A DNA stretch of 52,724 nt from Thermoplasmata archaeon (GTDB lineage Archaea; Thermoplasmatota; Thermoplasmata; Lutacidiplasmatales; UBA184), in the NCBI GenBank assembly GCA_027315455.1, contig DAHUXZ010000013.1, positions 1 to 52,724 of the forward strand, written 5' to 3'. This document shows, piece by piece, positions 35,367-51,658 of the stretch. The notes beneath the pieces were generated by a model, which was not told where the DNA came from, did not search any database, and saw only the letters and a list, made by a program, of their open reading frames with translations. A program made the position numbers and the translations under genes. Numbering within the stretch: position 1 is the stretch's first letter; the number at the start of each line of letters is the position of its first letter.

Positions 35367-35795
35367 GTGGCCCATCGCCGATCGACGCCCCCGGCGGCTC
35401 CGGAGGCCTGCCGGCTCCCCGGGGGGACCCTGTGGGCGCGCGAGGGACCGACGGGCGAGTTCACCCTCGGCCTCACCCGGTCGGCGAGCGAGCGCCTGGG
35501 CCGTCCCGTGCACTTCCGCGGACCGCCCGACGGGAGCCGCATCGCGGCCGGAGCGCCGGCCGTGAGCCTGGAGTCGGAGAAGTGGGTGGGCCACCTCGCC
35601 TCCCCGGCGGCCGGCACGGTGCTCGGCACGAACCCGCGGGTCCTCGCGGACCCGACGCTCATCCGTCGTGACCCCGAGGGCGCCGGCTGGCTGATCCGTC
35701 TGCGCCCCGACCGCCCCGAGGCGCTCCGCGCGGTAGCGGCGGGCGTAACGGGAGCGCCCCCGCCGGTCGGGGGGACCGCGCCGGGGCAGAGGTGA
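35367..35795 (+). CDS. GcvH/LbpA-like lipoyl-carrier protein
   Basis: 142 residues with a lipoyl/biotinyl-type beta barrel: FTLGLTRSASERLGRPVHF, then SLESEKWVGHLASPAAGTVLGTNPRVL with the lipoylation Lys in SEKW. The usual V-E-S-x-K reads L-E-S-E-K. C-terminal tail is Pro-rich. In sulfur oxidisers such proteins (LbpA) carry the sulfur substrate on lipoate for sHdr. GTG start; stop overlaps the lipoate ligase start, a gene pair that makes its modification explicit. Confidence 0.8.
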   Translation: MAHRRSTPPAAPEACRLPGGTLWAREGPTGEFTLGLTRSASERLGRPVHFRGPPDGSRIAAGAPAVSLESEKWVGHLASPAAGTVLGTNPRVLADPTLIRRDPEGAGWLIRLRPDRPEALRAVAAGVTGAPPPVGGTAPGQR

Positions 35796-36841: not shown

Positions 36842-37965
36842 GGCGGGGGGACGGGAGCGCCGCCGGCCGCGACGATGGCGCGCGCGATCTCCTCGGCCCC
36901 GACGCCCACGAGCCGGATCCCCCCCGCCGTCCGCCACGCCTCGATCCGGGCCACGAGGTCCGTCCGCTTTACCCACGCCCCGGCCAGGGCGGCCTCCAGC
37001 GCCTCGATCGCACCGGCGAACGGCACGGTGAAGAAGTCGCCGGAGAGCTCGACCTCCTCGATGCGGCCCGCGCGCGCGAGGACCGTCGCGCGGACGAGCT
37101 TGCCTCCCTTGACGTCCGCGCGACCGAGCGTCGTCCCGTCGGCGATCTTGACCGACCGGCCGGGGACGAGGTCGGGGCGTCCGCGCAGGCGCGGATGGCT
37201 CGCGTCCTTGAGGAGGGTCCAGTCCTCCCCCGACCGCTCCGACCGCAGCGCGGCGCGCCGCGCCGACTCTGCCGGCGAGAGCGTTCCGTCGACCGTCGTC
37301 GCGCCGAGCTCGCGCGCGAACGCCTCCCTGAGCGCCGCCGCCACGACGGCCCGATCCGGTGCGCGCCCGAGCTCGCGGCGCAGGGAGGTGAGCCACTCGG
37401 CGAGCCCGCCGGCGAGCTTCTCCCGGAACTTCTCGTCCGGGACGCGGAGGACGCGGGTCATGAGGGCGATGTCGAGGTCGAGGAGGAGGTCGCCGGTGAG
37501 GACCCAGGCGCCCCCGAGGGCGAGCGCCCCGTTCGCGCTGATCTTTCGCCCGCGGGCCGTGAGGTCGTTGACCCCGCCCCGCTCGGCCGGCACGCCGAGG
37601 CGCGAGAGGGCCGACCGGACCGGGGCGAGGTAGTGCGCGTAGAACCCCTCGACCCCGGCCGTGGTCCCCGGCGCCCCGTCCGGCACGACGACCATGTAGT
37701 CCTGCTCCCACGGTCCGTCCAGGATCGCTCCCCCGCCCACGACGCGCCGCACGACGGGGATCCCCGCCGCCCGGCAGTAGTCGAGGTCGATCTCCCGCTC
37801 CTCCTCCTGGTGGTAGCCCACGTTGGCGAACGGCGCCGCGGGATGGACCGACAGGATCGTCGCGGGGCTCGCCCCGCGGCCCACGGACTCCGCGACGGCG
37901 ACGAAGGCGTTGACCATCGTGGGGCCGTCGACGGCCCCGAGGTCGACCCAGCGCACGGGGTCCAT
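36838..37965 (-). CDS. Lipoate-protein ligase, fused LplA-LplB type (sLpl(AB)-like)
   Basis: 375 residues. Catalytic part (1-250): FANVGYHQEEEREIDLDY, VVRRVVGGGAILDG and NDLTARGRKISANGALALG with the catalytic Lys. C-terminal domain (about 255-375): DASHPRLRGRPDLVPG, KGGKLVRATVLARAGRIEEVELSGDFFTVP is the LplB-like accessory domain. sHdr loci typically carry a dedicated ligase of this build for LbpA. Last gene of the nine-gene sHdr operon, 4 bp after the DsrE-like gene. Confidence 0.88.
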   Translation of the reverse strand: MDPVRWVDLGAVDGPTMVNAFVAVAESVGRGASPATILSVHPAAPFANVGYHQEEEREIDLDYCRAAGIPVVRRVVGGGAILDGPWEQDYMVVVPDGAPGTTAGVEGFYAHYLAPVRSALSRLGVPAERGGVNDLTARGRKISANGALALGGAWVLTGDLLLDLDIALMTRVLRVPDEKFREKLAGGLAEWLTSLRRELGRAPDRAVVAAALREAFARELGATTVDGTLSPAESARRAALRSERSGEDWTLLKDASHPRLRGRPDLVPGRSVKIADGTTLGRADVKGGKLVRATVLARAGRIEEVELSGDFFTVPFAGAIEALEAALAGAWVKRTDLVARIEAWRTAGGIRLVGVGAEEIARAIVAAGGAPVPPP

Positions 37966-37969
37966 GGGC

Positions 37970-38374
37970 CTAGAACGAGATGACGGAGTCCGCCTCGAGG
38001 GCGAGGTCGGCGAGGGTCGCCGAGCCGACGAGCTTCACCCCGTCGAGCAACGCGCCCTCGGGGATGTCGCAGAGGTCGCGGCAGCTCTCGCTGCACGCGA
38101 GGAACTTCACCCCGTTCTCGAGGGCCATGTCGATGAACATCCGGAGGTTGCCGCCCTTCTTGAGGGGAAGCGAGTCGGCCCGTCCCTTGACGAGCAGCTC
38201 GGGGGCGTGCATGAGGAAGTACATCGTCGTGTCGATCTCCATCGCCGCCATGAGCGCGGCGGTGTAGAACGGCGCGTAGGTCTTGTCCGGGTCCTCCGGC
38301 CCCGTCGTCATGATCATCAGGATCTTCTTTCCCGCGTTGTCCGGCGGCCGCACCGCCGGTTCGGTCGTCGCCAT
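37970..38374 (-). CDS. DsrE-family protein of the sHdr operon
   Basis: 134 residues. KILMIMTTGPEDPDKTYAPFYTAALMAAMEIDTTMYFLMHAPELLVKG and the Cys cluster LACSESCRDLCDIPEGALLDGVKLVGSATLADLA fit the DsrE family, with three closely spaced Cys that could carry persulfide. Start at ATG 38374; a longer frame upstream is a shadow of lbpA. Sits between lbpA and the lipoate ligase, so it probably delivers sulfur to the lipoylated protein. Confidence 0.85.
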   Translation of the reverse strand: MATTEPAVRPPDNAGKKILMIMTTGPEDPDKTYAPFYTAALMAAMEIDTTMYFLMHAPELLVKGRADSLPLKKGGNLRMFIDMALENGVKFLACSESCRDLCDIPEGALLDGVKLVGSATLADLALEADSVISF

Positions 38375-38379
38375 GATGG

Positions 38380-38829
38380 CTACCCCTGGCACCGCATGCA
38401 GCGGATGTTGTCGCGCTGGAGGATCTCCCGGAACTTCGCGAGCGCCGCGGGACCGTGGAGCAGCTGGGCGACCTCCTCCGGGTGGGTCGGGCGCATCCGG
38501 ACGATCCATCCCTTCCCATACGGGTCCGTGTTGAGCAGCCCCGGGTCCTGTTCGACGGCGACGTTCGCCTCGACGACCTCGCCGGAGACGGGAGCGATCA
38601 CCGGGCCCGCCCACTTGCCGCTCTCGACCGTCGCGATCGGCTTGCCGCGCTCCCGTGCGGTGCCGGCCGCCTTGACGCGGACGTGCAGGATCTTCCCCGC
38701 GCGGGTCTGCGCCGGGTCGGTCAGCCCGATGCGGACCTCGCCCCCGTCGACCCGCACCCAGGTCATCTGGGAACGCTCGACGAAGTAGTAGAGCTCGTCC
38801 GGCAGCTCGCAGCCGTTCTCGATCGTCAT
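38380..38829 (-). CDS. lbpA: Lipoate-binding protein LbpA (GcvH-like) of the sHdr operon
   Basis: 149 residues homologous to glycine-cleavage H protein. YYFVERSQMTWVRVDGGEVRIGLTDPAQTRAGKILHVRVKAAG precedes the lipoyl hairpin ATVESGKWAGPVIAPVSGEVVEAN (Lys in ESGKW) and KGWIVRMRP. It carries an additional C-terminal segment ending NIRCMRCQG with a CxxC that H proteins lack. No gcvT, gcvP or gcvL is nearby, and position after hdrB2 is the standard LbpA place in sHdr clusters. Start ATG 38829. Confidence 0.92.
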   Translation of the reverse strand: MTIENGCELPDELYYFVERSQMTWVRVDGGEVRIGLTDPAQTRAGKILHVRVKAAGTARERGKPIATVESGKWAGPVIAPVSGEVVEANVAVEQDPGLLNTDPYGKGWIVRMRPTHPEEVAQLLHGPAALAKFREILQRDNIRCMRCQG

Positions 38830-38837
38830 GGGTCCCC

Positions 38838-39767
38838 CTAGGCGAACCCCCGCGCGCGGAAAAAGAGGTCGGGCCGGGAGAAGTTCAGCTTGAGCCGTGC
38901 CTCCCGGACGCTCCGCCCGAAGGCCAGCGCCATGAGCTGCGTGAAGTAGGCGACGGGGAGGAGGACCTCCGGGCCGTACGCCTGGCGGATCCGGTCGAGG
39001 TTGTTCTCGATGTTGATCTGGCCGAGGGGGCAGATCGTCGCGACGACGTCGGCGCCCGCGCGTTTCGCCTCGTTGAGGACCGACGCGCTGAACGCGACGG
39101 AGACGTCGAGGTCGCTGAGCGCGTGGCCGCCGCCGCAGCAGATCGTCTTCGCCGGGTAGTCGTGGATGACCTCGGCTCCGCACGCCTCGAGCAGCTCATC
39201 GAGGAAGTAGGGGTTCTCGGGGTTGTCCCGGCCGGGCTCGAGGCCGACCTTGGTGTAGCGCTTCGGGCGGCTGTAGAGGCATCCGTAGTACGGCGCGACC
39301 CGCACCCCCTTGAGCGGGGCCGTCACCGCCGCGCGGACCCCCCGGGGCCCGGCCCGCTGGCGGATGTACTCGAGGACGTGCCGGATCTCGGCCTGCCCGT
39401 CGTACGTCGGGGCACCGCCCTCGCTCAAACGGGCATTGATCCGGGCCGAGGTGGCGGGGTCCTCCATCGCGTCGTTCGCGCGGGCGAGGGAGTAGACGCA
39501 TCCGTTGCATGCCGCGACGACCGTCTGCCGGCCCATGTCCCGGGCGAGGGCGAGGTTCCGGGACGGCAGGGCCACCGAGACGTCGTGGCTGAGGTTCTTG
39601 ACCTCCGTCGCGCCGCAGCAGTTGTACTCCTCGATGCGGTCGAGCGGCAGTCCGAGGGTCTCGAGGACGAGCTGGCAGGAGACCTCGTAGGCCTTCCCGA
39701 GGCCGTCCATCGAGCAACCGGGGTAGTACGCCGGAGTCTCCTTCGGCGACGCCGCCGTCCCGCTCAC
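38838..39767 (-). CDS. shdrB2: sHdrB2, CCG-domain heterodisulfide reductase-like subunit
   Basis: 309 residues with two CCG motifs, which in HdrB bind noncubane [4Fe-4S] clusters. First: YYPGCSMDG (Cys18), YNCCGATEV (about 50) and ACNGC (about 88-91), complete. Second: YYGCLYSRP, TICCGGGHALS and ATICPLGQ, where the last Cys of CxxC is missing. GTG start overlaps the hdrC2 stop (GTGA). In the sHdr complex this subunit is a candidate site for sulfur-substrate chemistry with LbpA. Confidence 0.92.
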   Translation of the reverse strand: MSGTAASPKETPAYYPGCSMDGLGKAYEVSCQLVLETLGLPLDRIEEYNCCGATEVKNLSHDVSVALPSRNLALARDMGRQTVVAACNGCVYSLARANDAMEDPATSARINARLSEGGAPTYDGQAEIRHVLEYIRQRAGPRGVRAAVTAPLKGVRVAPYYGCLYSRPKRYTKVGLEPGRDNPENPYFLDELLEACGAEVIHDYPAKTICCGGGHALSDLDVSVAFSASVLNEAKRAGADVVATICPLGQINIENNLDRIRQAYGPEVLLPVAYFTQLMALAFGRSVREARLKLNFSRPDLFFRARGFA

Positions 39768-40495
39768 GGCCCCCCCTTCGGCGGGAGGCGGGCCGGCAGG
39801 TCCTGCCGGCGCCGCGCGAGGTCCTCCGAGAGCATCCGCTCGAGGACGGGCCGGAGGCGTCCCCAGCCCCGCGTGCGCTTGGCGAGCGGGCCGGTGTGGA
39901 GCCGGCCGGTAAGGAGCAGCCGAAGGCCCATCCTCAGCTTCTCTCCGGTCGGCAGGGTACGCCCCTCCCCGGCCTCGAACGTCTGGAACAGCCCGGCCTC
40001 ATCGAGGATGCCGCGCGCGAGGAGGTTGCGGGTGTACGCCTCGTCGAAGCGGTCCGCGGGGCTTTTCGGGGCCGTCCCCGTGAGCTCGAGGTAGGTACCG
40101 ATCGAGTGGACGACCTCCTCGACCTTGACCCCCTTCGGGCAGCGCTCGACGCACTTGTTGCAGGAGACGCACCGCCAGACCGTCTGCGCGTAGCGGGCGA
40201 GCTCCTTGTCGTAGCCGAGCTGGGCGAGATAGATGAAGTAGCGCGGGTTGAACTCCTCGAGCCCGTAGTCGGTGTGCATGCAGCAGCCGGCGGTGCACGT
40301 GCCGCACTGCCAGCAGCGGTCGATCGTCGCGCCCTGGGGCTGGCCCCGGACCCAGTCGACGATGCTGAGGTCGAGGTCGGTGTGCACGCGCGAGGCGATG
40401 AACGTGTTCCAGTCACCCGAGACGTCGATCCCCTCGACCTGGAGACTCTCGCTGCGCTCGAGCCCCTCGACGAGCGACTTCTCAACGATCGGCAT
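39764..40495 (-). CDS. shdrC2: sHdrC2, iron-sulfur subunit
   Basis: 243 residues. Two [4Fe-4S] motifs, CWQCGTCTAGCC (Cys about 61-71) and CVSCNKCVERCP (about 109-120), in an HdrC-type helical domain, passing electrons between HdrA and HdrB subunits. The tail beyond about 180 is Arg-rich. Overlaps the upstream hypothetical gene by 14 bp and hdrB2 by 4 bp. Confidence 0.92.
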   Translation of the reverse strand: MPIVEKSLVEGLERSESLQVEGIDVSGDWNTFIASRVHTDLDLSIVDWVRGQPQGATIDRCWQCGTCTAGCCMHTDYGLEEFNPRYFIYLAQLGYDKELARYAQTVWRCVSCNKCVERCPKGVKVEEVVHSIGTYLELTGTAPKSPADRFDEAYTRNLLARGILDEAGLFQTFEAGEGRTLPTGEKLRMGLRLLLTGRLHTGPLAKRTRGWGRLRPVLERMLSEDLARRRQDLPARLPPKGGP

Positions 40496-41216
40496 GGACC
40501 TCCCAACGTCGGATCCCGAGGATCATCGCGGCGAGGCCGTACGCCCCCGGGAGCAGGCTCTCGATGCCGCCCCCCTGGAAGCTCCGCTCGGTCGCCGTCG
40601 CGAGCCGGGGCGCGTAGGCGAGCGCGAGGAGGATGTCGACGCTCGCGAACGTCGGCGAGGGGAAGCCGAGCGCCGCGAGCTCCAGGCGGGCCTCGCCGAG
40701 CGCCGCCTGGGCCCCCTCGAGGCTCTCGGGGGGCGGTCGGACGAGCTCCCCGAGCAACCCCTGCCCCCGCGCCGGGTTCCACACCCACCGGGTCAGCAGG
40801 GCGATCCGGTCCGGGGCGATCGCGTGGGCGAGCTCCGCCGCGAGGTCGGCGCGCACCTCCGCGGGAACGCCACCGAACTCCTCGGCGAGGCCCGGCAGGT
40901 CCCGGGGCCCGAACGGTCCCCTCTCGATGCGGCGGGCGGCGGACCGGAAGCGTTCGGCCGGAACGCTGGCGAGGATCGCGGCACGGTGGGCGCTGCCCAC
41001 CCGGAAGGTAGAGAGAACGTCGGCGACCCGCCGGTCGGGCTCCTCGGGCGGAGCCTCGACGAGGCGGTGGGCGAGGGCGAACTTCCGCTCGAGGAGCGCC
41101 TCGAGCCGGTTGATCGGCGCCGCGCCGAGCGGGGCGACGCAGGTGGCGAAGGCACGCCGGATCGGCGCAAGGTCCCGGTGGACCGCGGGCGGGGGGCGCG
41201 TCTCAACCCCGAGCAT
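40482..41216 (-). CDS. Conserved hypothetical protein of sHdr clusters (hyp between hdrA and hdrC2)
   Basis: 244 residues, helical, no cofactor motif. Recognisable segments are PINRLEALLERKFALAHRLVE, AHRAAILASVPAERFRSAARR and the C-terminal LLALAYAPRLATATERSFQGGGIESLLPGAYGLAAMI. Position between hdrA and hdrC2 is that of the 'hyp' gene found in described sHdr loci; I assign it by position and general build. It overlaps hdrA by 14 bp and hdrC2 by 14 bp. May be a structural subunit of the complex. Confidence 0.78.
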   Translation of the reverse strand: MLGVETRPPPAVHRDLAPIRRAFATCVAPLGAAPINRLEALLERKFALAHRLVEAPPEEPDRRVADVLSTFRVGSAHRAAILASVPAERFRSAARRIERGPFGPRDLPGLAEEFGGVPAEVRADLAAELAHAIAPDRIALLTRWVWNPARGQGLLGELVRPPPESLEGAQAALGEARLELAALGFPSPTFASVDILLALAYAPRLATATERSFQGGGIESLLPGAYGLAAMILGIRRWEVHADR

Positions 41217-42240
41217 GCTTGTAGGCGCGGAGCGCCGCGCCCATCCCTTCCGTGACCGCGTCGGGGATCGCCTTCGGTCCCGTCGCCGCCCCGGCGAGGA
41301 AGATCCCCGGGTGGCCCGATTCGACCGGGTTGAGGTCGGAGAGCTTGGGGGTGAGGAACCCCTCCGGGCCCACGGGGAGGCCGAAGAGCTGGGCCGCCTC
41401 CTTCGTGCCGGTTCCGGGCTCCATGCCGCTCGCGAGGACGATCATGTCGAACGGCACCTCGGTCGGACGGCTCAGGATCGTGTCCTCCCCGGTCGCGAGG
41501 AGCCGCTTCCCGCCCTCCGCCTGGGTGATCTGCCCGATCCGGCCGCGGATGAACTTGACCCCGTACTCGTTCATCGACTTCCAGTAGAGGTCCTCCCAGA
41601 GGCCGTAGGTTCGGATGTCCATGTAGTAGACGTAGGTGTCGATCTCGGGATGCTTCTGGCGGACCTCGACGGCCTGCTTGATCGAGACCGCGCAGCCCAT
41701 CCGGCAGCACCAGGGATTGCCGACCTGCACGTCGCGCGATCCGACGCACAAAAGCCAGGCGATCCGCTTCGGCAGCGCCCCGTCGGAGGGGCGCGTGAGG
41801 CGGTCGTCGTGGATCATCCCCTCGAACTCCTTGAAATCGATGACGTCCGGATACCGTCCGTAGCCGTACTCGTACTTGCGCCGGGAATCGAAGTGGTCGA
41901 ACCCCGTCGCGAGGACGACGCTCGAGACCTCCCGCCAACCGCTCGTCTCCGGACCCTTGAGCTCGACCCGGAATCCCGAGGAGAGCGGTTCGACCCGGGA
42001 CACCGTCGTGCGCAGGTGGCGCTCGATGAGGGGCGCGCCTTCGACCCGGCTCACGAGGGGATTGAGGACCTCTTCGGCCGGCAGGAGGTCCGGGGCGAGC
42101 AGCGAGTAATGCCAGCGTCGGGGGTTCCCACCCCAGTACTCCTCCTTCTCGACGAGCAGGACCGGAGCGCCGAGCGATGCGAGCTCCGCGGCCGCGCTCA
42201 AGCCGGCTGGGCCCCCGCCCAGCACGAGGACGGGGTTCAC
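41203..42240 (-). CDS. shdrA: sHdrA, FAD-containing subunit
   Basis: 345 residues, the short sHdr-type HdrA without ferredoxin inserts. GTG 42240 opens PVLVLGGGPAGLSAAAELASLG (FAD Rossmann) and VLLVEKEEYWGG. LLCVGSRDVQVGNPWCCRMGCAVSIKQAVEV holds the Cys cluster typical of HdrA, and GIFLAGAATGPKAIPDAVTEGMGAA closes the FAD site. It overlaps the hdrB1 stop (GTGA). Unlike methanogen HdrA there is no N-terminal [4Fe-4S] domain. Probably passes electrons from the CCG subunits to NAD+ or another acceptor. Confidence 0.93.
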   Translation of the reverse strand: MNPVLVLGGGPAGLSAAAELASLGAPVLLVEKEEYWGGNPRRWHYSLLAPDLLPAEEVLNPLVSRVEGAPLIERHLRTTVSRVEPLSSGFRVELKGPETSGWREVSSVVLATGFDHFDSRRKYEYGYGRYPDVIDFKEFEGMIHDDRLTRPSDGALPKRIAWLLCVGSRDVQVGNPWCCRMGCAVSIKQAVEVRQKHPEIDTYVYYMDIRTYGLWEDLYWKSMNEYGVKFIRGRIGQITQAEGGKRLLATGEDTILSRPTEVPFDMIVLASGMEPGTGTKEAAQLFGLPVGPEGFLTPKLSDLNPVESGHPGIFLAGAATGPKAIPDAVTEGMGAALRAYKHARG

Positions 42241-43538
42241 TTGAGCGCCCGCCCCACGGCCGCCACGAGGGCGCCCGATGCCGCCGATGCGGGTTCCTCG
42301 GGGAGGACCTGACCCTTGTTGACGGCGAAGTACTTCTCGATCTCGTCGCGGGGAGGGTACAGGGTCTCGGGCGTGGCGCCCCGCTTGAGCGCCGCCAGGT
42401 ACTCGACGAACTCCGCCTTCGCCGCCCGCCCGTCGATGCCCATCTTCTCGAGGAGACGGTCGACGGGAGCGGCGTGCCAGTGGACCTGGACGATCTTGTA
42501 CGGATGCGCCCCCATCGCGAGGGCGGCGAACTGCACGTCGGCCAGGACGGGCAGCGCCAGCGCCTCCCCGTGGGCGCGGGCGATCCACTGGCTCTTGTCG
42601 AGGGTGGTGACGCATCCCGTGTCGCTCGTGATCGCCACGTCGGAGTGGGCCTCCTCGATCATCGGGCGGATCTTGCGCAGGTTGGCGAACGACCGGCTGA
42701 ACTCCCGCTCGGAAAGGATATGGCGGAAGCCGAAGCCGCAGCAATCGTACCACGTCGAGTAGTCGGCGACGCGGGCCCCGAGCGCGAGGAGGATCCCCGT
42801 GGGCACCGCGGGACGCTGGCCCCCGAGGATCTCGGGGTCGTAGACCGCGTCCTCGGGGATCATCTTGTAGTAGTGACAGGGCTCGTGGACCGTCGCGACC
42901 ACGCCGGAGACGTCGTGCGTGCGCCGGGCGAGGATCTCCGGGCGCATCGCGTGGACCCATTCGGAGTAATGGACGATCTCCTCGGGGAGGACGAGGTCCC
43001 GTCCCATCTTCCGCAGGATCTCGCGGACCTTGTGGCGGACCTCGGCGTTCTCCACGAGGAGCTTGCGCATCTCCTTGTAGTCGCCGTAGCTCGTTCCGCA
43101 GTGGATGAGGGGGAAGTGGTCGGTCTCGTACGCCCGGTGGAAGTTGCGGGCCGCGACGGCGGCGAGGGCGACGGGGTTCGACGTGGCGGTACCGTGGTAG
43201 TTCCACGCGGTGCAGGAGGTCTGGTGCGGCTCGTTGAGGTAGCTCTTGCCGAGGGCGTTCATCATCCAGAGGAGCGCCGACGGGTAGCCGGGGATGTTGC
43301 CGCACTGGCCGCAGGACTTGTGGTGCCAGAGGCGGGAGGTCGGGATCCGCTTCGTCCAGCCGAAGAGCGTCTCGACGTTCACCGGCGCGTTCTCGGGGCG
43401 GATGCGGTGGATGATGAGCTCCCCCTTCTCCTCGAGGCGCTCCATCTCCTCACGGACGTCGACGACCTTCTTTCCCGTGCCCCGGCGTCGGGCGTCCCGC
43501 TCGGCGACGATCTCTCGTATCTGGTGAGCGCTGAGCAT
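42237..43538 (-). CDS. shdrB1: sHdrB1, CCG-domain subunit
   Basis: 433 residues, longer than HdrB2 through N- and C-terminal extensions. One intact CCG motif lies in HEPCHYYKM, WYDCCGFGFRHI and SDTGCVTTL. The other is degenerate: SCGQCGNIPG is present but the CCG is TSCTAWNYHG. This one-plus-one pattern separates it from HdrB2. It starts 9 bp after hdrC1. Likely substrate or electron-transfer subunit of the sHdr core. Confidence 0.9.
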   Translation of the reverse strand: MLSAHQIREIVAERDARRRGTGKKVVDVREEMERLEEKGELIIHRIRPENAPVNVETLFGWTKRIPTSRLWHHKSCGQCGNIPGYPSALLWMMNALGKSYLNEPHQTSCTAWNYHGTATSNPVALAAVAARNFHRAYETDHFPLIHCGTSYGDYKEMRKLLVENAEVRHKVREILRKMGRDLVLPEEIVHYSEWVHAMRPEILARRTHDVSGVVATVHEPCHYYKMIPEDAVYDPEILGGQRPAVPTGILLALGARVADYSTWYDCCGFGFRHILSEREFSRSFANLRKIRPMIEEAHSDVAITSDTGCVTTLDKSQWIARAHGEALALPVLADVQFAALAMGAHPYKIVQVHWHAAPVDRLLEKMGIDGRAAKAEFVEYLAALKRGATPETLYPPRDEIEKYFAVNKGQVLPEEPASAASGALVAAVGRALK

Positions 43539-43547
43539 CCTTCCTCC

Positions 43548-44384
43548 CTACCCCGAAAACGTCGCGACCGGGCCGTGCATCGCAGCGAGCTGCGAATGGT
43601 AGCGGGTCCGGGCCTCCTCGAACTCCTCGCGTCGTTCCTCGATGATGTCGATGAGCATCTCAGTGAGGTCCGGGTCGAGCCCCCGCAGCATGTCGAGGAC
43701 CCCCGCCTCCTCGTAGATGCGGAACAGTTCGAGCGACGTCTGGACCGAGACCTCCCAGGAGGAGGTGGTGGTTTGGAGGACGTCGATCGGGATCGCCTGA
43801 CGCAGGAGGTGGGGGTCCGCGTCCCACGACTTCTCGCCGGCCGCCGCGAACGGTCCCCAGTCGCGGAAGAAGTCGGGCTGGATCATGTCGGAGGCGACCT
43901 GCGTGCCGACGGTCATGAGGAGAGTGAGCGAGCGGTTGAACGGCGCCAGGACCCGGCGGGTCGACTCGAGCCCGTGCCGGACCGAGAGCTCCCGCATCAC
44001 GCTGATGATCCCGGCGATGTCGTTGCCGAAGCGGCAGCGCATGTTGCAGGTGTAGCACTGGCAGCACGCCCAGATCTTCTCCTGCATCGCGTCCCAGAGC
44101 GTGGTCGCGTCTCCGACCGCCGCGATCTGGAGCATCTCCCGTGGGGAGAAGTCGTAGAAGCGCGCCGCGGGGCAGCCCGTCGTGCACTCCCCGCAGTTGA
44201 GGCACCCGAGGACGTACTCGCGGTACCGGCCATCGGCCCGGAACTCGCCGAAGATCGTTTCCGCCGTCCGCCGCTCCTCGGCGGTGAGCGGGCGCCGGCC
44301 GGTGAGCTCGAGTGCCGGCGGATGCGCCGCCTCCGTATCGGTGAGGGTCGGGGTACGGTGGGGCAGATGGGCCACCACGCTCAT
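43548..44384 (-). CDS. shdrC1: sHdrC1, iron-sulfur subunit
   Basis: 278 residues. CLNCGECTTGCPAARF and ACCQCYTCNMRCRFG give two [4Fe-4S] sites, each C-x2-C-x2-C-x3-C, near residues 63 and 104. A long helical C-terminus follows. First gene of the sHdr operon. ATG 44384 is chosen because the palindrome and the TATA-like element lie just upstream; the frame extends further but through promoter-like DNA. Confidence 0.9.
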   Translation of the reverse strand: MSVVAHLPHRTPTLTDTEAAHPPALELTGRRPLTAEERRTAETIFGEFRADGRYREYVLGCLNCGECTTGCPAARFYDFSPREMLQIAAVGDATTLWDAMQEKIWACCQCYTCNMRCRFGNDIAGIISVMRELSVRHGLESTRRVLAPFNRSLTLLMTVGTQVASDMIQPDFFRDWGPFAAAGEKSWDADPHLLRQAIPIDVLQTTTSSWEVSVQTSLELFRIYEEAGVLDMLRGLDPDLTEMLIDIIEERREEFEEARTRYHSQLAAMHGPVATFSG

Positions 44385-44514: not shown

Positions 44515-45525
44515 GTGACCGCGCGCCCGCCCCCGTCCGAACGACCGACCGTCCCGGCGCGTACCCGCGAGCTCGCCGCCGACCCCCTCGCGCTCGACGG
44601 GGCTCCCTCCCGCGAGGTGCTCGCGTTCCTGACCGAGGCGGCGCGGGCGATCGAGTCGCTCGGCGAGCCGACGCTCGTCCGTTTCCGGGGGGACGACGGG
44701 TTCCGGGTCATTGGGGACACCCACGGCGACTACGCGAGCGCGCACGCGGCGATGGATCGGCCGGAGGGCCCGTCGGACCGACCGTTCGTCGCCGTCGGCG
44801 ACTACATCGACCGGGCGACCCGCAGCGAACCGCGCCCGGCCGCGCTGCCCCTCGGGTCCCTCTGGAACCTCCTGTTCCTCGTGGCCCGGAAGCTGGTCGA
44901 GCCGGACCGCGTCATCCTCCTCCAGGGGAACCACGAGTCGGCACGACGGCTTCCGGTCCCCGGCCCGACCTACCTGCGCGAGCTTCGGGAGCGTTTCCCC
45001 CGTCCCGAGGCCCTCGCGCTGTGGCGGGCCTCCTTCGAGGTCGTCGAGCGCCTTCCGCTCGCGGCCCTCTCCTCGAACGGGGTCTTCCTCGCCCACGGGG
45101 GGATCCCACCCCCCGGCGCGCCCCCCGCGGACCGGTGGCGGCGGGACGACCTCGACCTCCTCGAGGGTCTCGTCTGGGGAGACCCCGCGAACGCCTACGA
45201 GGACCGGGGCATCGGCTTCGCCTTCCACGAGCCGGAGCTCGTCCGGTTCCTCCATCCGCTCCCGGCCTCGGTCCTCGTCCGCGGGCATGACCCGAAGCAT
45301 TCCGGCACGTCGCTCTACCACGGCGCCTGCCTCACGCTCCAGACCTCGGACCTGTTCCGTCGGTTCGGGCACGGGGGGATCCTGCGGGCGGAGGTCCCCG
45401 CGGCCCCGCGCATCCGCGGCGCGGAGGAGATCGCGGTCGAGGAGCTGGTGGACGGGGCGTGGCGTCCGTACGCAATCCGCGTGATCGGCGCCCCCGGCCC
45501 GCGGGCCGGAGCCGGCGGCGAGTGA
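44515..45525 (+). CDS. PPP-family serine/threonine phosphatase
   Basis: 336 residues with all metallophosphatase signatures: GDTHGD, GDYIDRA, GNHESARR, HGGIP and, further on, RGHDPKHSG. These bind a di-metal centre and hydrolyse phospho-Ser/Thr. Acidic/Pro-rich N-terminus. GTG 44515 lies about 33 nt from a TATA-like TCTTTAGC. It sits between the divergently transcribed sHdr operon and aprBA, an unexpected place for a signalling phosphatase. Confidence 0.88.
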   Translation: MTARPPPSERPTVPARTRELAADPLALDGAPSREVLAFLTEAARAIESLGEPTLVRFRGDDGFRVIGDTHGDYASAHAAMDRPEGPSDRPFVAVGDYIDRATRSEPRPAALPLGSLWNLLFLVARKLVEPDRVILLQGNHESARRLPVPGPTYLRELRERFPRPEALALWRASFEVVERLPLAALSSNGVFLAHGGIPPPGAPPADRWRRDDLDLLEGLVWGDPANAYEDRGIGFAFHEPELVRFLHPLPASVLVRGHDPKHSGTSLYHGACLTLQTSDLFRRFGHGGILRAEVPAAPRIRGAEEIAVEELVDGAWRPYAIRVIGAPGPRAGAGGE

Positions 45526-45540: not shown

Positions 45541-47382
45541 TCAGAGGATCGGGGTGTAGGTCCGCCGGTGGATCTCCCAGGCGCCGGTCGACGGGACGAA
45601 GCGGGAGTTGACGAAGCAGCGCCAGTTCGTGTCGTCGACGTGCGGGAAGTCGGCCCGGTAGTAGTAGCCCGGCCAGCGCGTCTCCTTGCGGAACAGGGTG
45701 TGACGGACGACGGTCTCCGCCGTCCAGAGGCGGTGCTCGAGCTCCCACGCGCGCTGCAGCTGGTGCAAATCCGGCGCGGCGATCAGTGCGAGATCGGCAC
45801 GAAGGGCGGCGAGGTTCTCGAGGGCGCGAACCAGGAGGTACTCGTTCGTCGTGTAGTCCGCGCCGACACCCCCCGCGTACTCGTCCATCGTCTTCTCGAG
45901 GCGATAGAGCCCGTCGACGGGCAGGAGGTAGGAGGGGTTCACCGTGCCGGCGGTCACCTGGCCACGGCCCGCCGCGTACGTCTCGAGGGGGCGGTAGAGG
46001 AGACCTCGCAGCCCGTCGACGCGCGCGTCGTCCGCCTGCGGCGGCGCGTCGGCGTGGTCACGGACGAACGCGACGGCCGCCTTCCCGGCGAGCCGACCCT
46101 CGGTGAAGGAGCCCGAGGAGAACTTGTGGGCCGAGCCGCCGACGGTGTCTCCCGCCCCAAAGAGGCCCTGGACGGTGGTCATGCGGTTGTAGCCCCACTG
46201 GTATTCGGGCGGAGCGACATCGGCCGGCCCGCTCGTCCACGCCCCGGCGCAGACCGCATGCGAGCCCATCACGTACGGCTCGGAGAGGATGAGCTCCGAG
46301 GGGACCTTCGACGGGTCCGTCCCCTGCGCCGCCCAGGTGACGACCTGCCCGACGGTCATGTTGAGGAAGTCCTCCCAGCCGATCTCCTCCTTCTCCGGCG
46401 TGTCGAGGACCCGCTCGGTGTGGAGAAGGATCGGTCCCTTCCCCTCGCGGATCTCCTGGAGCATCAGGTGGTTGCGCAGGCAGGTCGGCATCGGCTTCGC
46501 GTCCGCGTACGGCCCCACCCGTTGCCGCAGCTCGGGGAGGCGGGACTTCTCGAACTCCTCGCCCGCGGCGTTCGTCGCGACGGCCTTGAGCAGCAGGAAC
46601 CACGCGCCGACCGGGCCGTAGCCGTCCTTGAACCGCGTGACGACGAGGCGGTTCTCCATCTGCGTCATCTCCGCGCCCATGCCGATGAGGAGCGCGTAGG
46701 CCGACCCGGTCGCCCACGGCGGATACCAGGTCCGGCCCGCTCCCTCGCCCGCGGAACGGGGGCGGTAGATGTGGGAGGCGCCGGCGGCGGCGACGATGAC
46801 GGCCTTCGCACGGAAGACGTAGTACGACCCGTCGCGGACGTTGATGCCGACGGCCCCGGCGACCCGGTTCGGGTCGCGGGCGTCGGGGAGGAGGTGGGTC
46901 ACCATCACCCGCTCGACGACCTCCGTCGACGCCTTGCGCGCCGCCTCGGCGATGATCGGCTTGTACGACTCGCCGTGGATCATCACCTGCCAGCGCCCCT
47001 CGCGGACATACTTGCCGGTCTGGGCGTCTTTGAAGAACGGGAGTCCCCACTCCTCGAAGAGATGGACCGTCGAGTCGACGTGCCGCGCCACGTCGTAGAC
47101 GAGGTCCTCGCGCGAGAGCCCCATGAGGTCGTTGCGGACGTACCGAACGAAATCCTCGGGAGTGTTCTCGTTCCAGCGCATCCCCATGTAGCAGTTGATC
47201 GCGCTCAGCCCCTGGGCCACGGCGCCGCTGCGCTCGATCGCCGCCTTGTCGACCAGGACGATCTTGAGGTCGCGTCCCCAATAGCGCGCCTCGTACGCCG
47301 CCCCGCAGCCGCCAAACCCGCCGCCGATGATCAGGATGTCCGAGTCGACGACGTGGACCGTGCTCGAGTGCCCCGACTCCAT
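45541..47382 (-). CDS. aprA: Adenylylsulfate (APS) reductase, alpha subunit
   Basis: 613 residues, FAD subunit of dissimilatory APS reductase, which interconverts sulfite plus AMP and APS. ILIIGGGFGGCGAAYEARYWG binds FAD. AQGLSAINCYMGMRWNENTPEDFVRYVRNDLMGL, FEEWGLPFF, GKYVREGRWQVMIHGESYKPIIAEAA and MGSHAVCAGAW are AprA-specific. The C-terminal RWPGYYYRADFPHVDDTNWRCFVN completes it. Length is close to known AprA. Starts 13 bp after aprB. In this sHdr context the oxidative direction is likely. Confidence 0.95.
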   Translation of the reverse strand: MESGHSSTVHVVDSDILIIGGGFGGCGAAYEARYWGRDLKIVLVDKAAIERSGAVAQGLSAINCYMGMRWNENTPEDFVRYVRNDLMGLSREDLVYDVARHVDSTVHLFEEWGLPFFKDAQTGKYVREGRWQVMIHGESYKPIIAEAARKASTEVVERVMVTHLLPDARDPNRVAGAVGINVRDGSYYVFRAKAVIVAAAGASHIYRPRSAGEGAGRTWYPPWATGSAYALLIGMGAEMTQMENRLVVTRFKDGYGPVGAWFLLLKAVATNAAGEEFEKSRLPELRQRVGPYADAKPMPTCLRNHLMLQEIREGKGPILLHTERVLDTPEKEEIGWEDFLNMTVGQVVTWAAQGTDPSKVPSELILSEPYVMGSHAVCAGAWTSGPADVAPPEYQWGYNRMTTVQGLFGAGDTVGGSAHKFSSGSFTEGRLAGKAAVAFVRDHADAPPQADDARVDGLRGLLYRPLETYAAGRGQVTAGTVNPSYLLPVDGLYRLEKTMDEYAGGVGADYTTNEYLLVRALENLAALRADLALIAAPDLHQLQRAWELEHRLWTAETVVRHTLFRKETRWPGYYYRADFPHVDDTNWRCFVNSRFVPSTGAWEIHRRTYTPIL

Positions 47383-47395
47383 GTTCCCTTCCCTC

Positions 47396-47845
47396 CTAGG
47401 CTCCGGGCGCCGCGGGTCGCTTCAAGGTCGGGAGCGCCTCCACCGCGAGATAGTCCGGTTCGAAGGAAAGCAGCTCCTCCCGGATCGCCCCGGCGGGCGG
47501 GACGGGAGCCTCCTGGGGAGCCGGGATCGACCCCCAGGGCGTCGTGCGCAGGGGGAAGGTGAACTCCTTGACCAGACCCGAGCGGGATTCGATCCGCCAC
47601 TGGATCTTCTCATCGGTGCGCGTCGGAACCACGCGGTGGTGCAGCGGGGCGAAGTCCGAGTAGCCCCGGACGTCGATCGCCCCCTCGGGGCACGCCTTGA
47701 CGCAGGAGAAGCATTCCCAGCAGAACGACGGCTCGATGTTGTACGCCTTGCCCTGCGTCGGGTCGATGTGCATGATGTCGCTCGGACAGATCGTCACGCA
47801 CTCCATGCACCCCTGACACTTGCTGGGGACCACGTAGGTAGGCAT
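47396..47845 (-). CDS. aprB: APS reductase, beta subunit (ferredoxin-type)
   Basis: 149 residues with CQGCMECVTICPSDIMHID and FCWECFSCVKACPEGAIDVRGYSDF, two [4Fe-4S] motifs, and a C-terminal AprB tail that wraps around AprA. Known AprB transfers electrons between AprA FAD and a membrane partner. ATG 47845; a 53-nt leader follows from the T-run TATA candidate. Directly upstream of aprA as in other organisms. Confidence 0.94.
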   Translation of the reverse strand: MPTYVVPSKCQGCMECVTICPSDIMHIDPTQGKAYNIEPSFCWECFSCVKACPEGAIDVRGYSDFAPLHHRVVPTRTDEKIQWRIESRSGLVKEFTFPLRTTPWGSIPAPQEAPVPPAGAIREELLSFEPDYLAVEALPTLKRPAAPGA

Positions 47846-47996: not shown

Positions 47997-48302
47997 CTAT
48001 CCGAACCGATAGCTGACGCCCTTGCCGCCCCGGGGGAACTCCCAGGCGAGGGCGCCCTTCCCGAGCGCATGGCAGGCGATGCGGCAGGCCCCCAGCTCGA
48101 GGCAGTTCTCGAAGCGGATGTGGATCCGCTGGTCCGCCTCCTCCCAGGCGTAGACCTGGGCCGGACAGACCCGGATGCACGGCTTGAGCTCGCAGGTGAG
48201 GCAGGTCCGCGGCTCGGGGATGCGCAGGTGCGCTTCCGTGTCGGTGTGGAACGAGGTCGAGCCCAGCCGGTCGGAAAGGCTGATCGGCTTGCCAGCGGCC
48301 AC
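47997..48302 (-). CDS. FixX-like ferredoxin
   Basis: 101 residues with RTCLTCELKPCIRVCPAQVYAWE and FENCLELGACRIACH, the FixX/ETF-QO ferredoxin pattern, plus the terminal GGKGVSYRFG. It would serve as the Fe-S part of the ETF:quinone oxidoreductase whose FAD part (FixC-like) lies divergently 300 bp away. GTG start, 7 bp after the DUF1059 gene. Confidence 0.88.
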   Translation of the reverse strand: MAAGKPISLSDRLGSTSFHTDTEAHLRIPEPRTCLTCELKPCIRVCPAQVYAWEEADQRIHIRFENCLELGACRIACHALGKGALAWEFPRGGKGVSYRFG

Positions 48303-48309
48303 GCGTCCC

Positions 48310-48492
48310 TCAGGCCAGCGCGACCGCCGCCGATTCCGCCCGCAGGCGGGTCGCGGCGTCGAGCTCGGTCATCTTGTGGGCGCACTTGGCGTGCTGGGCG
48401 AACTGGTCGAGCGCCTCGGCCGCGGTCGGGGCGCGCGTGGCCCACTCGCAGTTCCATCCGAGCCCGCGGCACGCGAGGGAGACGGGCGGCAT
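48310..48492 (-). CDS. DUF1059 small protein
   Basis: 60 residues: SLACRGLGWNCEWATRAPTAAEALDQFAQHAKCAHKMTEL matches the DUF1059 pattern (CRDLGxDCxxV.....E....H....H). Two Cys and two His suggest metal binding. Function unknown. ATG 48492 or GTG 48501; a CGAAAAGGG about 30 nt upstream could be its TATA. Co-transcribed with the FixX-like gene. Confidence 0.75.
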   Translation of the reverse strand: MPPVSLACRGLGWNCEWATRAPTAAEALDQFAQHAKCAHKMTELDAATRLRAESAAVALA

Positions 48493-48608
48493 GTAGGGCA
48501 CGAAGGGCTCCCGGGCTATGCCCTTTTCGGGGACGCCGCGCCGGACGGGTCCGCCGGCCGGGGACCATCTCTCGTCTTCAAGCCAAGCGGTGTTTACCCC
48601 CCGCGGGC

Positions 48609-49901
48609 ATGGCGGACAAGTTCGACGTCGTGGTGGTCGGCGCCGGCCTCGCCGGCTCGGCGGCCGCCTTCGTGGCGGCGAGCGCCGGTCTTCAGGTGAT
48701 CCTCGCCGAGCGGGGCAGCCGACCCGGGTCGAAGACCGTCTCGGGGGGCCTCCTCTACACCCACGCCCTCTCCCGGCTCTGGCCGAAGTTCTGGGAGGAG
48801 GATCCGTGCCCGGTCGAGCGGGCGATCGACCGGAACGTCCTCACCCTCCTCACGCCGGACCAGGCGCTGAGCATCGACCACTTCGATGCGCGGTTCGGCC
48901 GGCCCCCGTACAACTCCTTCAGCGTCCTCCGGAGCCGTCTCGACCCCTGGGTCGCCGGCAAGGCCGAGGCGGCCGGGGCTACGCCGGTCTACGGGGTCAA
49001 GGTCGACGGGCTCGTCCGGGAGGGGTCGCGGGTCGTCGGCATCCAGGCGGGTGGCGAGGAGCTCCGCGCGGACGTGGTGATCCTCGCCGACGGGGCGAAC
49101 GCGCTGACGGCCCGTCGAAGCGGGCTCGAGCCCGAGGGCGACCCCCGCACCACCGGCGTCGGGGTCAAGCAGGTCATCGAGCTGCCGCCCGGCGAGGTCG
49201 AGAAGCGGTTCCAGCTCACGGGCCGGTCCGGAACGCAGTACACGACCATCGGGTTCCCTCCCAAGGTCGAGGGCGGGGGGTTCCTCTACACCAATCGCGA
49301 CACCCTTTCCCTCGGCATGATCGTCAACCTGCGCTCGCTGGTCGAGCGGAGGGTGTCGATGGACGACGTCCTCGAGGAGTACAAGCAGCACCCGTTCGTC
49401 GCGCGCCTTCTCGAAGGCGGGACGCTCGTCGAGTACTCCGGATGCTACGTCGGGGAGGGGGGGTTCGACGCGCTGCCCCCGCTCTACGGCGACGGCTACC
49501 TCCTCGCGGGGTCGGCGGCGGGGTTCTTCCTCAACACCGGCTTTACGCTCCGCGGCATGGACTTCGCGATCGAGAGCGGGCGACTCGCCGGCGAGGCGGC
49601 CGTCGCGGCGCTCCGGGCGAAGGACGCTTCGGCCGCCGGGCTTCGCGGCTACGCCGCCGCGCTGGACGCGAGCTTTGTCCTCCGCGAGCTGCGCGAGTAC
49701 CGCCGGTACCCCTCGTTCTTCGAGAACCCGCGGCTCTACGAGCAGTACCCGCGCCTCGCCGTCGGGCTCCTCGACCGCCTCTACTCCGTCGACGGCCGGG
49801 GGCGACCGCCCCTGCGGAGCGTCCTCAAGGAGACCGTTCGGGGCGGTCCGTCGCCGCTCGACCTCGTGCGGGATCTCTGGACCGCGGCGCGCAGCCTCTG
49901 A
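48609..49901 (+). CDS. fixC: FixC-like ETF:quinone oxidoreductase, FAD subunit
   Basis: 430 residues. DVVVVGAGLAGSAAAFVAASAGLQVILAERG is the FAD-binding N-terminus, SKTVSGGLLYTHALSRLWP and the central LILADGANALTARRSGL fit FixC. GVGVKQVIELPPGEVEKRFQL, GFFLNTGFTLRGMDFAIESG and the C-terminal PSFFENPRLYEQYP are FixC-type. It passes electrons from ETF to the quinone pool, together with the FixX-like ferredoxin. Its 3' end is 15 bp from the converging etfA. Confidence 0.92.
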   Translation: MADKFDVVVVGAGLAGSAAAFVAASAGLQVILAERGSRPGSKTVSGGLLYTHALSRLWPKFWEEDPCPVERAIDRNVLTLLTPDQALSIDHFDARFGRPPYNSFSVLRSRLDPWVAGKAEAAGATPVYGVKVDGLVREGSRVVGIQAGGEELRADVVILADGANALTARRSGLEPEGDPRTTGVGVKQVIELPPGEVEKRFQLTGRSGTQYTTIGFPPKVEGGGFLYTNRDTLSLGMIVNLRSLVERRVSMDDVLEEYKQHPFVARLLEGGTLVEYSGCYVGEGGFDALPPLYGDGYLLAGSAAGFFLNTGFTLRGMDFAIESGRLAGEAAVAALRAKDASAAGLRGYAAALDASFVLRELREYRRYPSFFENPRLYEQYPRLAVGLLDRLYSVDGRGRPPLRSVLKETVRGGPSPLDLVRDLWTAARSL

Positions 49902-49916
49902 GGCGACCCGCTCGCC

Positions 49917-50870
49917 TTACGCCCCCGACAATGCCCGGACGAGGGCCGGCACCACCGTGTAGAGGTCCCCGGTGACCGTGAAGTCGGACTGGGCGAAGAT
50001 CGGGGCGTTCGGGTCCTTGTTGATCGCGACCACGACCGTCGACTCGCGCATACCGACCAGGTGCTGCACCGCCCCGGAGATCCCGACGGCCACGTAGAGG
50101 CGCGGCTTGACGCGGTGGCCCGTGAGGCCGATCCAGTGGTCGTCGCTCAGCCAGCCGGCCTCGGCGGCGATCGGGCGGGTGCAGCCGACAACCGCGCCCA
50201 TGGCGCGAGCGAGCTCCTCGATGAGGGAGAGGTCCTCCTTCTTGCGGAGACCCCGGCCCACGGAGACGATCCGCTCGGCCGCTTCGATGCGGAGGCCCCC
50301 GGCCGGTTTGACCGTGCGCTCGACGAGCGCGATCCGTCCCGCCCCCTCGGGAGGCGGAACGTCGATGATCTCGGGAGGCGTCGTGGGGGGGACGGCGGGG
50401 ACCGGCGCGCCGAGCATCACCGCCACGATCGGGCGAGGGCCGAGGAGAACCTCCTCGCCGAGGGCGTTGCCGCTCAGGACCTCGCGCCGGATCCGTACGC
50501 CCTCGGGCTCCAGGGCGAAGCTGGCGACCCCCGTGGAGACCGCCGAGTCGGTCGCCCCCGCGAGCCGGGCCGCCGTCTCCCGCCCCCGCTTCGTCGACGC
50601 CACGAGGGTGAGCCGGGGGTTCGCGGCTTCCTGCGCCCGACGAAGGGCAACGGCCACGAGCTCCGGGTCGTGGCGCGCGTTCTCGGGAAGCAGAAGGCGA
50701 TAGACCCGGTCGGCGCCCCCGACCGCCGAGCCGGCCGGCCCGCCCCCGTCGGCGAGCACGGCGAGCTCGACGCGCCCGGGCCCCGGGCCGACGGCCGCGC
50801 GGGCGGCCGCGAGAAGACCCGGGATCGCCTCGGCCTCTTCGGAGAAGACCAGGACCGTCTCCCCGCTCAC
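49917..50870 (-). CDS. etfA: Electron transfer flavoprotein, alpha subunit
   Basis: 317 residues. The N-terminal alpha/beta domain (1-190) is followed by the FAD domain: GRGLRKKEDLSLIEELARAMGA, CTRPIAAEAGWL, GLTGHRVKPRLYVAVGISGAVQHLVGM, ESTVVVAINKDPNAPIFAQSDFTVTGDLYTVVP, all diagnostic. ATGA/GTGA-type 4-bp overlap with etfB. Forms a heterodimer with EtfB that accepts electrons from dehydrogenases. Confidence 0.95.
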   Translation of the reverse strand: MSGETVLVFSEEAEAIPGLLAAARAAVGPGPGRVELAVLADGGGPAGSAVGGADRVYRLLLPENARHDPELVAVALRRAQEAANPRLTLVASTKRGRETAARLAGATDSAVSTGVASFALEPEGVRIRREVLSGNALGEEVLLGPRPIVAVMLGAPVPAVPPTTPPEIIDVPPPEGAGRIALVERTVKPAGGLRIEAAERIVSVGRGLRKKEDLSLIEELARAMGAVVGCTRPIAAEAGWLSDDHWIGLTGHRVKPRLYVAVGISGAVQHLVGMRESTVVVAINKDPNAPIFAQSDFTVTGDLYTVVPALVRALSGA

Positions 50871-51658
50871 GGGAGGACCCCCTCGCGCCGCAGCGCGTCC
50901 ACGAGCCCGCGGGCCGTCGTCGCCGGGTCCGCGCCCGAGACCGCCTGGCGCTTCCGGTTCACCTCGGGAACAAAGACCCGGTCCCGACGGGCCAGCGGGG
51001 CCCAGTCGGAGGGCTGGACGCCGAGCTCTGAGGGCCCGAAGGAGCGGATCTCCTTCTTCGACGCCTTGAGCGTCGACATGAACGTCGGAACCCGCGGCTG
51101 GTTGATCTCCTGGCCGACGGTGATGATCGCCGGGAACGCGGCCCGGACCTTCTCGAGCTCGTGTTCGTACTCGCGCTCGACCAGCACAGCGCCGTCCTCG
51201 ACGCTGACGCGCCGGGCGTAGGAGAGCGACGGGGCTCCGATCTCGGCGGCGACGCGGGGGCCGATGGTGCCGGTGAAGTGGTCAGTGCTCCCCTCGCCGA
51301 AGAACCAGAGGTCGAATCCGGGGTGCGTCCGGGCGTAGGCGGCGAGCGCCCGTGCGACCCCGCGACCGTCCAGGTCCGGCCGCGCGGGGTCGGTGATCAG
51401 GACGGCCTCGTCGGCCCCGAGCGCGAGGGCGTCCCGGAGCGCCTCCTTCGACGTCGGAGGGCCGACCGTCAGCGCCGTCACCGTGCCGCCCAGCTTTTCC
51501 CGGATGCGGACGGCCTCCTCGACGGCGTTACGGTCGAAGTCGCTCGTCTTGCGGGGCGCGCGGTCCATCGCGACGGTCCCGGTGGATCGGTCGGCCCGCG
51601 CGAGGACGACGTCGACCCCGTGCTTGACGGCCACCCAGAGGCGGATCGGTCCGGACAT
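50867..51658 (-). CDS. etfB: Electron transfer flavoprotein, beta subunit
   Basis: 263 residues of the EtfB fold: VAVKHGVDVVLARADRSTGTVAMDRAPRKTSDFDRNAVEEAVRIREKLGGTVTALTVGPP, LALGADEAVLITDP, GEGSTDHFTGTIGPRVAAEIGAP, FPAIITVGQEINQPRVPTF. The AMP/ADP-binding loop is present. ATG 51658 is fixed by a TATA box 27 nt upstream; the longer frame to 51766 is not supported. Confidence 0.94.
   Translation of the reverse strand: MSGPIRLWVAVKHGVDVVLARADRSTGTVAMDRAPRKTSDFDRNAVEEAVRIREKLGGTVTALTVGPPTSKEALRDALALGADEAVLITDPARPDLDGRGVARALAAYARTHPGFDLWFFGEGSTDHFTGTIGPRVAAEIGAPSLSYARRVSVEDGAVLVEREYEHELEKVRAAFPAIITVGQEINQPRVPTFMSTLKASKKEIRSFGPSELGVQPSDWAPLARRDRVFVPEVNRKRQAVSGADPATTARGLVDALRREGVLP

Follow-up and report, generated by a model that had tools for sequence, protein, structure and literature searches.

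An electron-transfer flavoprotein module as candidate electron exit of APS reductase in uncultured Thermoplasmata lacking AprM

The window analysed here is a stretch of 52,724 nucleotides from a Thermoplasmata archaeon (Lutacidiplasmatales). It is a whole contig (C4) of a genome of 1.98 Mb in 87 contigs, 94% complete and with 72.7% GC, whose nearest named relatives are metagenome-assembled genomes (MAGs) called 'Thermoplasmata archaeon'. The window encodes an adenosine 5'-phosphosulfate (APS) reductase, AprBA, together with an electron-transfer flavoprotein (ETF), EtfAB, and the two subunits of an ETF:quinone oxidoreductase, FixC and FixX. An earlier note on this DNA had pointed to these genes, and all of them are present, with fixX directly upstream of aprB and full-length family matches for every named gene:

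50867-51658, minus strand: etfB, apr-linked type (PF01012, E 3e-37), with the non-bifurcating signature STDHFTGTIGPR
49917-50870, minus strand: etfA, apr-linked type (PF00766 and PF01012), in which REVLSGN replaces RPxFGG
48609-49901, plus strand: fixC, flavoprotein of ETF:quinone oxidoreductase (7koe_C, E 6e-65; PF01266; PF21162, ETFQO_UQ-bd; tree clade A)
48310-48501, minus strand: small DUF1059 protein of 63 aa (PF06348, E 2e-10)
47997-48302, minus strand: fixX, ferredoxin (PF05187, E 7e-9; nearest solved chain Thermotoga maritima EtfX, 7koe_D, E 2e-19; clade A)
47396-47845, minus strand: aprB, APS reductase beta subunit (TIGR02060, 170 bits for a cut-off of 136; PF12139)
45541-47382, minus strand: aprA, APS reductase alpha subunit (TIGR02061, 929 bits for a cut-off of 642; 1jnr/2fja, E 1e-221)

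Both AprA and AprB exceed the curated equivalog cut-offs, which identifies a dissimilatory APS reductase, and FixC combines the FAD domain PF01266 with the quinone-binding domain PF21162 of ETF:quinone oxidoreductases. On the minus strand the order runs etfB, etfA, DUF1059, fixX, aprB, aprA and then the sHdr sulfur-oxidation cluster; fixC, between etfA and the DUF1059 gene, and a metallophosphatase gene, between aprA and the sHdr cluster, lie on the plus strand. FixC and EtfAB are thus near aprBA as the earlier note had it, with a correction of detail: fixC is on the opposite strand and so cannot share an operon with fixX, and the DUF1059 gene stands between the two. This arrangement is far beyond chance, since about 20 related genomes have it too. 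The conserved synteny of fixX-aprBA and etfBA-fixC to which the note had looked for support was strongly borne out, and a chance neighbourhood can be rejected on this recurrence.

The partners named so far for AprBA are Qmo, including QmoAB-HdrBC, and AprM (PMC2211403, PMC10504309). Profile and protein searches of the window genome recovered neither QmoC nor AprM. The QmoC profile was matched solely over its HdrC-like N-terminal part, at no more than 44 bits for a cut-off of 300 (no search of their own was made for QmoA and QmoB), and the AprM of Sysuiplasma, used as query, had no match there or elsewhere in the genus. The absence of the usual partners, first noticed in the window, therefore extends for AprM and QmoC to the whole 94%-complete genome. 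A scan of GTDB with the window AprA returned 80 aprA loci. In 55 of them AprM is the same-strand gene immediately upstream of aprB, in hosts that include Thiobacillus, Sulfuricella, Sedimenticola, SAR116, Marsarchaeota, Nitrososphaerales and Sysuiplasma. FixX takes this position in 18 loci, all from Thermoplasmata; fixX occupies the slot in 18 of the 19 fixX-bearing GTDB loci, and in the window as well, the exception being L123, with fixX about 8 kb away. The remaining loci comprise three of type 2 with neither FixX nor AprM and three more without recognisable AprM. An AprM-like gene was found in 6/6 apr genomes that belong to the same class but not to the genus, and in none of the genus itself. 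The AprM of Sysuiplasma shows weak similarity to the membrane domain of QmoC (E 5e-11), and its identity to the betaproteobacterial proteins encoded in the aprM position is about 50-61%. The conserved flanks offered no other candidate membrane partner than a TauE/SafE gene with a DUF1634 gene, which some relatives, but not the window, have between phosphatase and etfB. The TauE/SafE gene belongs to the sulfite-exporter family; the pair occupies L090:5674-6947 and L097:11966-13242 and fits a sulfite context. AprBA loci without a recognisable upstream AprM are seen in L172, L178 and L180 (one Nitrososphaerota, two Thermoproteota), with aprB and aprA divergent in L178 and L180.

The genus holds two types of FixX. 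Type A proteins share 52-96% identity with the window FixX, and in 15 of the 16 type-1 apr genomes their gene precedes aprA by 600-1000 bp, whereas type B (about 40% identical) is located elsewhere, in genomes with or without apr. FixC splits likewise (tree support 100/99 for clade A and 100/100 for clade B). Of the 16 type-1 apr genomes in the genus, 14 were found to have the apr-linked EtfB type (the two without it are 78% and 83% complete); no other genome among the 35 checked has it. A wider search of 400 relatives recovered it in 22: in 20 it shares a contig with aprA, while two copies end at contig edges. Eight of its carriers lie outside the genus; six of these are informative and all six agree.

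Published markers of electron bifurcation are DGDTAQVGP (bifurcating FAD), RxFxG (NAD) and SPT in EtfB (PMC9232219), and RPxFGG in EtfA (PMC10734219). None of them occurs in the 17 apr-linked EtfB and 17 EtfA, which read approximately STDHFxGxxGPR and RExLSGN or RDxLSGN at the motif sites. The canonical EtfA of Paracoccus has RPIYAGN at the RPxFGG site; RPAFGG is retained in the EtfAB beside FixCX of two other families (L084, L085). Because the motifs are missing from 17/17 apr-linked EtfAB, these proteins are most likely linear, non-bifurcating ETFs in a dehydrogenase-ETF-quinone route. The ETF chains of 1o94, from trimethylamine dehydrogenase, are among the structure matches of the window ETF. 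Trimethylamine dehydrogenase is also the precedent for an iron-sulfur centre that reduces an ETF.

The window FixX is peculiar too. Its second-cluster motif, CLELGACRIAC, lacks the cysteine equivalent to C64 of T. maritima EtfX, a ligand of the proximal cluster; type A proteins read CLELGAC or CLETGAC where EtfX has CLECGTC. The ligands of two [4Fe-4S] clusters expected of a bifurcating-type FixX are hence incomplete, and the altered motif may leave a three-iron or otherwise changed cluster. We considered the missing cysteine as an adaptation to AprBA and rejected this, as unlinked FixX of Sysuiplasma and of two other families lack it too. The same feature (CxELGAC) appears at 47997-48302 of the window and in L055-L062, that is, in FixX of several Thermoplasmata families, which differ in this from two-cluster FixX.

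Taken together, EtfB, EtfA, FixC and FixX are probably the electron exit of a sulfite-oxidising APS reductase, standing in for AprM. In the proposed scheme, sulfite and AMP would reduce the FAD of AprA, from which electrons would pass through the two [4Fe-4S] clusters of AprB to the non-bifurcating EtfAB, then to FixX/FixC, which would act at the membrane surface as an ETF:quinone oxidoreductase of two subunits, into the quinone pool and on to a heme-copper oxidase. The genome has two COX1 genes, which show an aerobic chain. APS would be converted to ATP and sulfate by Sat, whose gene is on contig C2. The sulfite would most likely come from the adjacent sHdr-LbpA system, and from another source in a sister genus without nearby sHdr. 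We infer the direction of flow, the physical contacts and the order after AprB, where EtfAB could come first or AprB could reduce FixX directly. For the direct step speaks that fixX stays with aprBA when etfAB-fixC moves; EtfAB, however, is the component most specific to aprBA genomes. Somewhat less firmly, we propose that this represents a third wiring of APS reductase, from AprB through a dedicated non-bifurcating ETF and FixC with a seven-cysteine FixX to quinone, adopted by a Thermoplasmata family once AprM had been lost.

AprB itself bears on this loss. The loops proposed to dock it to Qmo and to AprM have been defined (PMC2211403). Compared with Archaeoglobus fulgidus AprB, the window protein shows a five-residue gap at the Qmo loop, seen against both 1jnr_B and 3gyx_B, and equal length at the AprM loop, where Sysuiplasma AprB carries a two-residue insertion. 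This two-residue acidic loop is missing from 19/19 FixX-linked AprB, from L123 and from 3/3 type-2 proteins (23/23), and from 0/55 AprM-linked ones, its equation with the published AprM loop being our own mapping by position and not taken from the published supplementary table. The window AprB would accordingly have neither docking loop, the one for AprM being the elongated acidic loop in the beta-sheet segment of AprB from lineage I of the sulfur-oxidising bacteria (SOB). The first cluster motif differs as well, CDGCGxC in AprM-linked against C[KQ]GCMEC in FixX-linked proteins. In the AprA tree the FixX-linked sequences form one clade (SH-aLRT 93), with type 2 as sister (99), adjoining the AprM group; basal branches are long, and loss of AprM is the presumed direction of change. 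Given this joint clade of FixX-linked and type-2 AprA (99), the loop was probably lost in one event common to both, and its loss therefore shows loss of the AprM dock, not gain of a FixX dock.

Downstream of aprA, the window continues with a sulfur-oxidation cluster:

44515-45525, plus strand: metallophosphatase (PF00149), beside aprA in many relatives too
38838-44384, minus strand: type I sHdr cluster (Hdr profiles, as for its five sHdr genes below)
43548-44384, minus strand: sHdrC2
42237-43538, minus strand: sHdrB2
41203-42240, minus strand: sHdrA
40482-41216, minus strand: hypothetical gene inside the cluster
39764-40495, minus strand: sHdrC1
38838-39767, minus strand: sHdrB1
38380-38829, minus strand: LbpA lipoate carrier (PF01597)
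37970-38374, minus strand: DsrE-like protein (PF02635)
36838-37965, minus strand: lipoate-protein ligase (PF21948)
35792-36841, plus strand: lipoate-protein ligase (PF21948)

A TusA gene also belongs to this sHdr/LbpA/DsrE cluster. The order shdrC1B1A-hyp-C2B2 with lbpA, in one cluster (38380-44384), is that of type I sHdr; C2 and B2 are separate genes, without the fused shdrB3 of type II, and etfAB tracks aprBA in the sister genus g40 and at most loci. At the edge of the cluster (29386-30270) lies a gene for a NUBPL/ApbC-type iron-sulfur carrier ATPase, which in relatives (L089, L090, L097) adjoins the cluster as well.

The earlier note had left open whether AprBA or sHdr feeds the ETF. Co-occurrence cannot separate the two donors, because Apr and sHdr are present together in the genus. 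The decision comes from neighbouring groups: Sysuiplasma has Apr, sHdr and AprM without the apr-linked EtfAB, and the sister genus (G135, G148, G150) has a compact etfB-etfA-fixC-DUF1059-fixX-aprB-aprA, with no sHdr, DsrE or TusA gene within about 20 kb of the module, although g40 was not searched genome-wide. AprM, not sHdr, changes together with the module. With the occupation of the slot by fixX, these cases favour AprBA as the donor and leave sHdr disfavoured as the main one.

Several observations weigh against the module as electron exit of AprBA. Type-2 AprBA, the sister clade, shares the loss of the AprB loop and has neither AprM nor type A FixX nearby, so the loop loss preceded FixX recruitment or is independent of it. 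The features of AprB, of EtfAB and of the slot each trace to about one clade and do not represent many independent events, and all genomes named for the module are MAGs. In G001, G136 and G047 fixC stands beside sHdrC2 and not beside aprBA, as does etfAB in G001 and G136, while fixX remains with aprBA in all three. Moreover, the window FixX and FixC are the only ones found in the genome, so they must also serve the ETF of an acyl-CoA dehydrogenase on contig C19 and cannot be exclusive to AprBA. Type A FixC and FixX occur in addition in three apr-less genomes (G013, G019, G056), without the apr-linked EtfAB, and are thus not apr-specific. This is consistent with FixCX of type A being a general ETF:quinone oxidoreductase, for which the apr-linked EtfAB would be the adaptor.

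These last points would also suit an ordinary ETF:quinone oxidoreductase of fatty-acid or amino-acid oxidation that came to lie beside aprBA by chance, an explanation we regard as improbable. A fatty-acid set does exist in the genome, as the earlier note had foreseen it might, and its acyl-CoA dehydrogenase has its own EtfAB on C19; because that dehydrogenase adjoins a different ETF pair, the set does not account for the window EtfAB, whose type is distinct and found essentially only with aprBA. No acyl-CoA dehydrogenase was recognised beside the window pair, most genomes with the apr-linked module additionally keep a separate housekeeping FixX or FixC-B (FixC-B near canonical ETF), and it is the aprM slot that fixX fills. 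Besides the C19 pair, the genome encodes a fused EtfBA on C77 (L002:6743-8617), a solitary gene for yet another ETF type. That EtfAB-FixCX instead drains sHdr, passing electrons of the HdrA flavin by way of EtfAB to quinone while AprBA relies on another partner, seems to us equally doubtful. The joint presence of sHdr and type-1 apr in the genus, the displaced fixC and etfAB next to sHdrC2 and the etfAB genes carried by type II sHdr clusters elsewhere (PMC11582611) fit such a role, whereas the g40 module without nearby sHdr, the closely related sHdr of Sysuiplasma without this EtfAB, and the attachment of fixX to aprBA even where etfAB-fixC has moved do not.

The four subunits EtfA, EtfB, FixC and FixX are also those of the bifurcating FixABCX/EtfABCX complexes, in which NADH reduces ferredoxin and quinone, and the T. 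maritima complex (7KOE) is the closest solved one for both FixC and FixX. A bifurcating function unrelated to AprBA is nevertheless very improbable and was rejected on the motifs absent from all 17 apr-linked EtfAB, to which the missing C64 equivalent of FixX and the opposite strand of fixC can be added. Equally improbable is a reverse flow, in which electrons from quinol would reach AprBA by way of FixCX/EtfAB and serve to reduce sulfate. Both AprBA and ETF can in principle work in either direction, and AprBA also serves sulfate reducers, but the genome combines sHdr, LbpA, TusA and DsrE genes of sulfur oxidation with the two COX1 genes, and its AprA groups with the AprM-linked enzymes of sulfur oxidisers.

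Among known systems, the aprMBA(-sat) arrangement of SOB Apr lineage I (PMC2211403, PMC3779200) is similar in its AprBA, in the one small gene upstream of aprB, in Sat and in its oxidative context. The window departs from it by fixX in place of aprM, by a genome without AprM and an AprB without the elongated acidic loop, and by the added etfAB and fixC. QmoABC-linked AprBA of sulfate reducers and of SOB lineage II likewise connects APS reductase to quinone by flavin and iron-sulfur proteins; here, however, QmoC is missing, AprB lacks the KGxD/EK loop proposed as Qmo dock, and the ETF:quinone oxidoreductase proteins are not Qmo homologues. T. maritima Fix/EtfABCX has four homologous subunits and leads to quinone through FixC/FixX as well, but differs in its bifurcation motifs, in its complete cluster ligands and in having no link to aprBA. 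The chain from dehydrogenase through ETF and oxidoreductase to quinone is the linear one of canonical ETF and ETF:ubiquinone oxidoreductase, whose EtfA motif (GNAL) the window protein resembles; in the window the oxidoreductase is split into FixC and FixX and the presumed donor is APS reductase. As to type II sHdr (PMC11582611), both systems have ETF genes inside a sulfur-oxidation cluster, but the window sHdr is of type I and its ETF follows aprBA.

The physiological partner of AprM-type APS reductases has been described as unknown (PMC2211403). Within the partial coverage of our literature search, no paper linked FixX or ETF to AprBA, and the Lutacidiplasmatales paper (PMC9287336) contains none of the terms apr, hdr, etf and flavoprotein. 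The departure from described schemes that the earlier note announced would hold for the coupling of ETF to AprBA and not for ETF in sulfur oxidation as such, which has its precedent in the etfAB of type II sHdr clusters (PMC11582611). The ETF/FixCX coupling, as read from genomes, would be a new version of APS-reductase coupling and points to a previously undescribed way for electrons from sulfur to enter respiration. If it is true, ETF would be extended from organic substrates to sulfite oxidation. We know of no ETF so far shown to take electrons from an enzyme of inorganic sulfur oxidation, so that this one would be the first. With a recognisable ETF:quinone oxidoreductase in the AprM slot, the partners form a defined soluble set open to direct expression and testing, and etfBA-fixC-fixX-aprBA offers a marker set for sulfite oxidisers among uncultured archaea of acid habitats.

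Some further observations concern AprBA in the related genomes. The DUF1059 mini-protein (48310-48501), with a C..C..H..CH pattern, is kept beside fixX-aprBA and also beside type-2 aprBA; it is possibly a metal-binding accessory of AprBA. At the type-2 loci (L102, L103, L104, L075, L076) DUF1059 is present, often with an NmrA-like gene upstream, and no FixX, AprM, Sat or sHdr gene is nearby; genomes with type-2 AprBA are mostly without sHdr. A second, divergent AprBA occurs in L101:11007-13249 (G033) and in L031/L105 (G032), with AprA about 65% identical and, in G033, AprB 44% identical. Both copies branch outside the FixX and AprM groups, and that of G033 lies directly beside sHdrC2.

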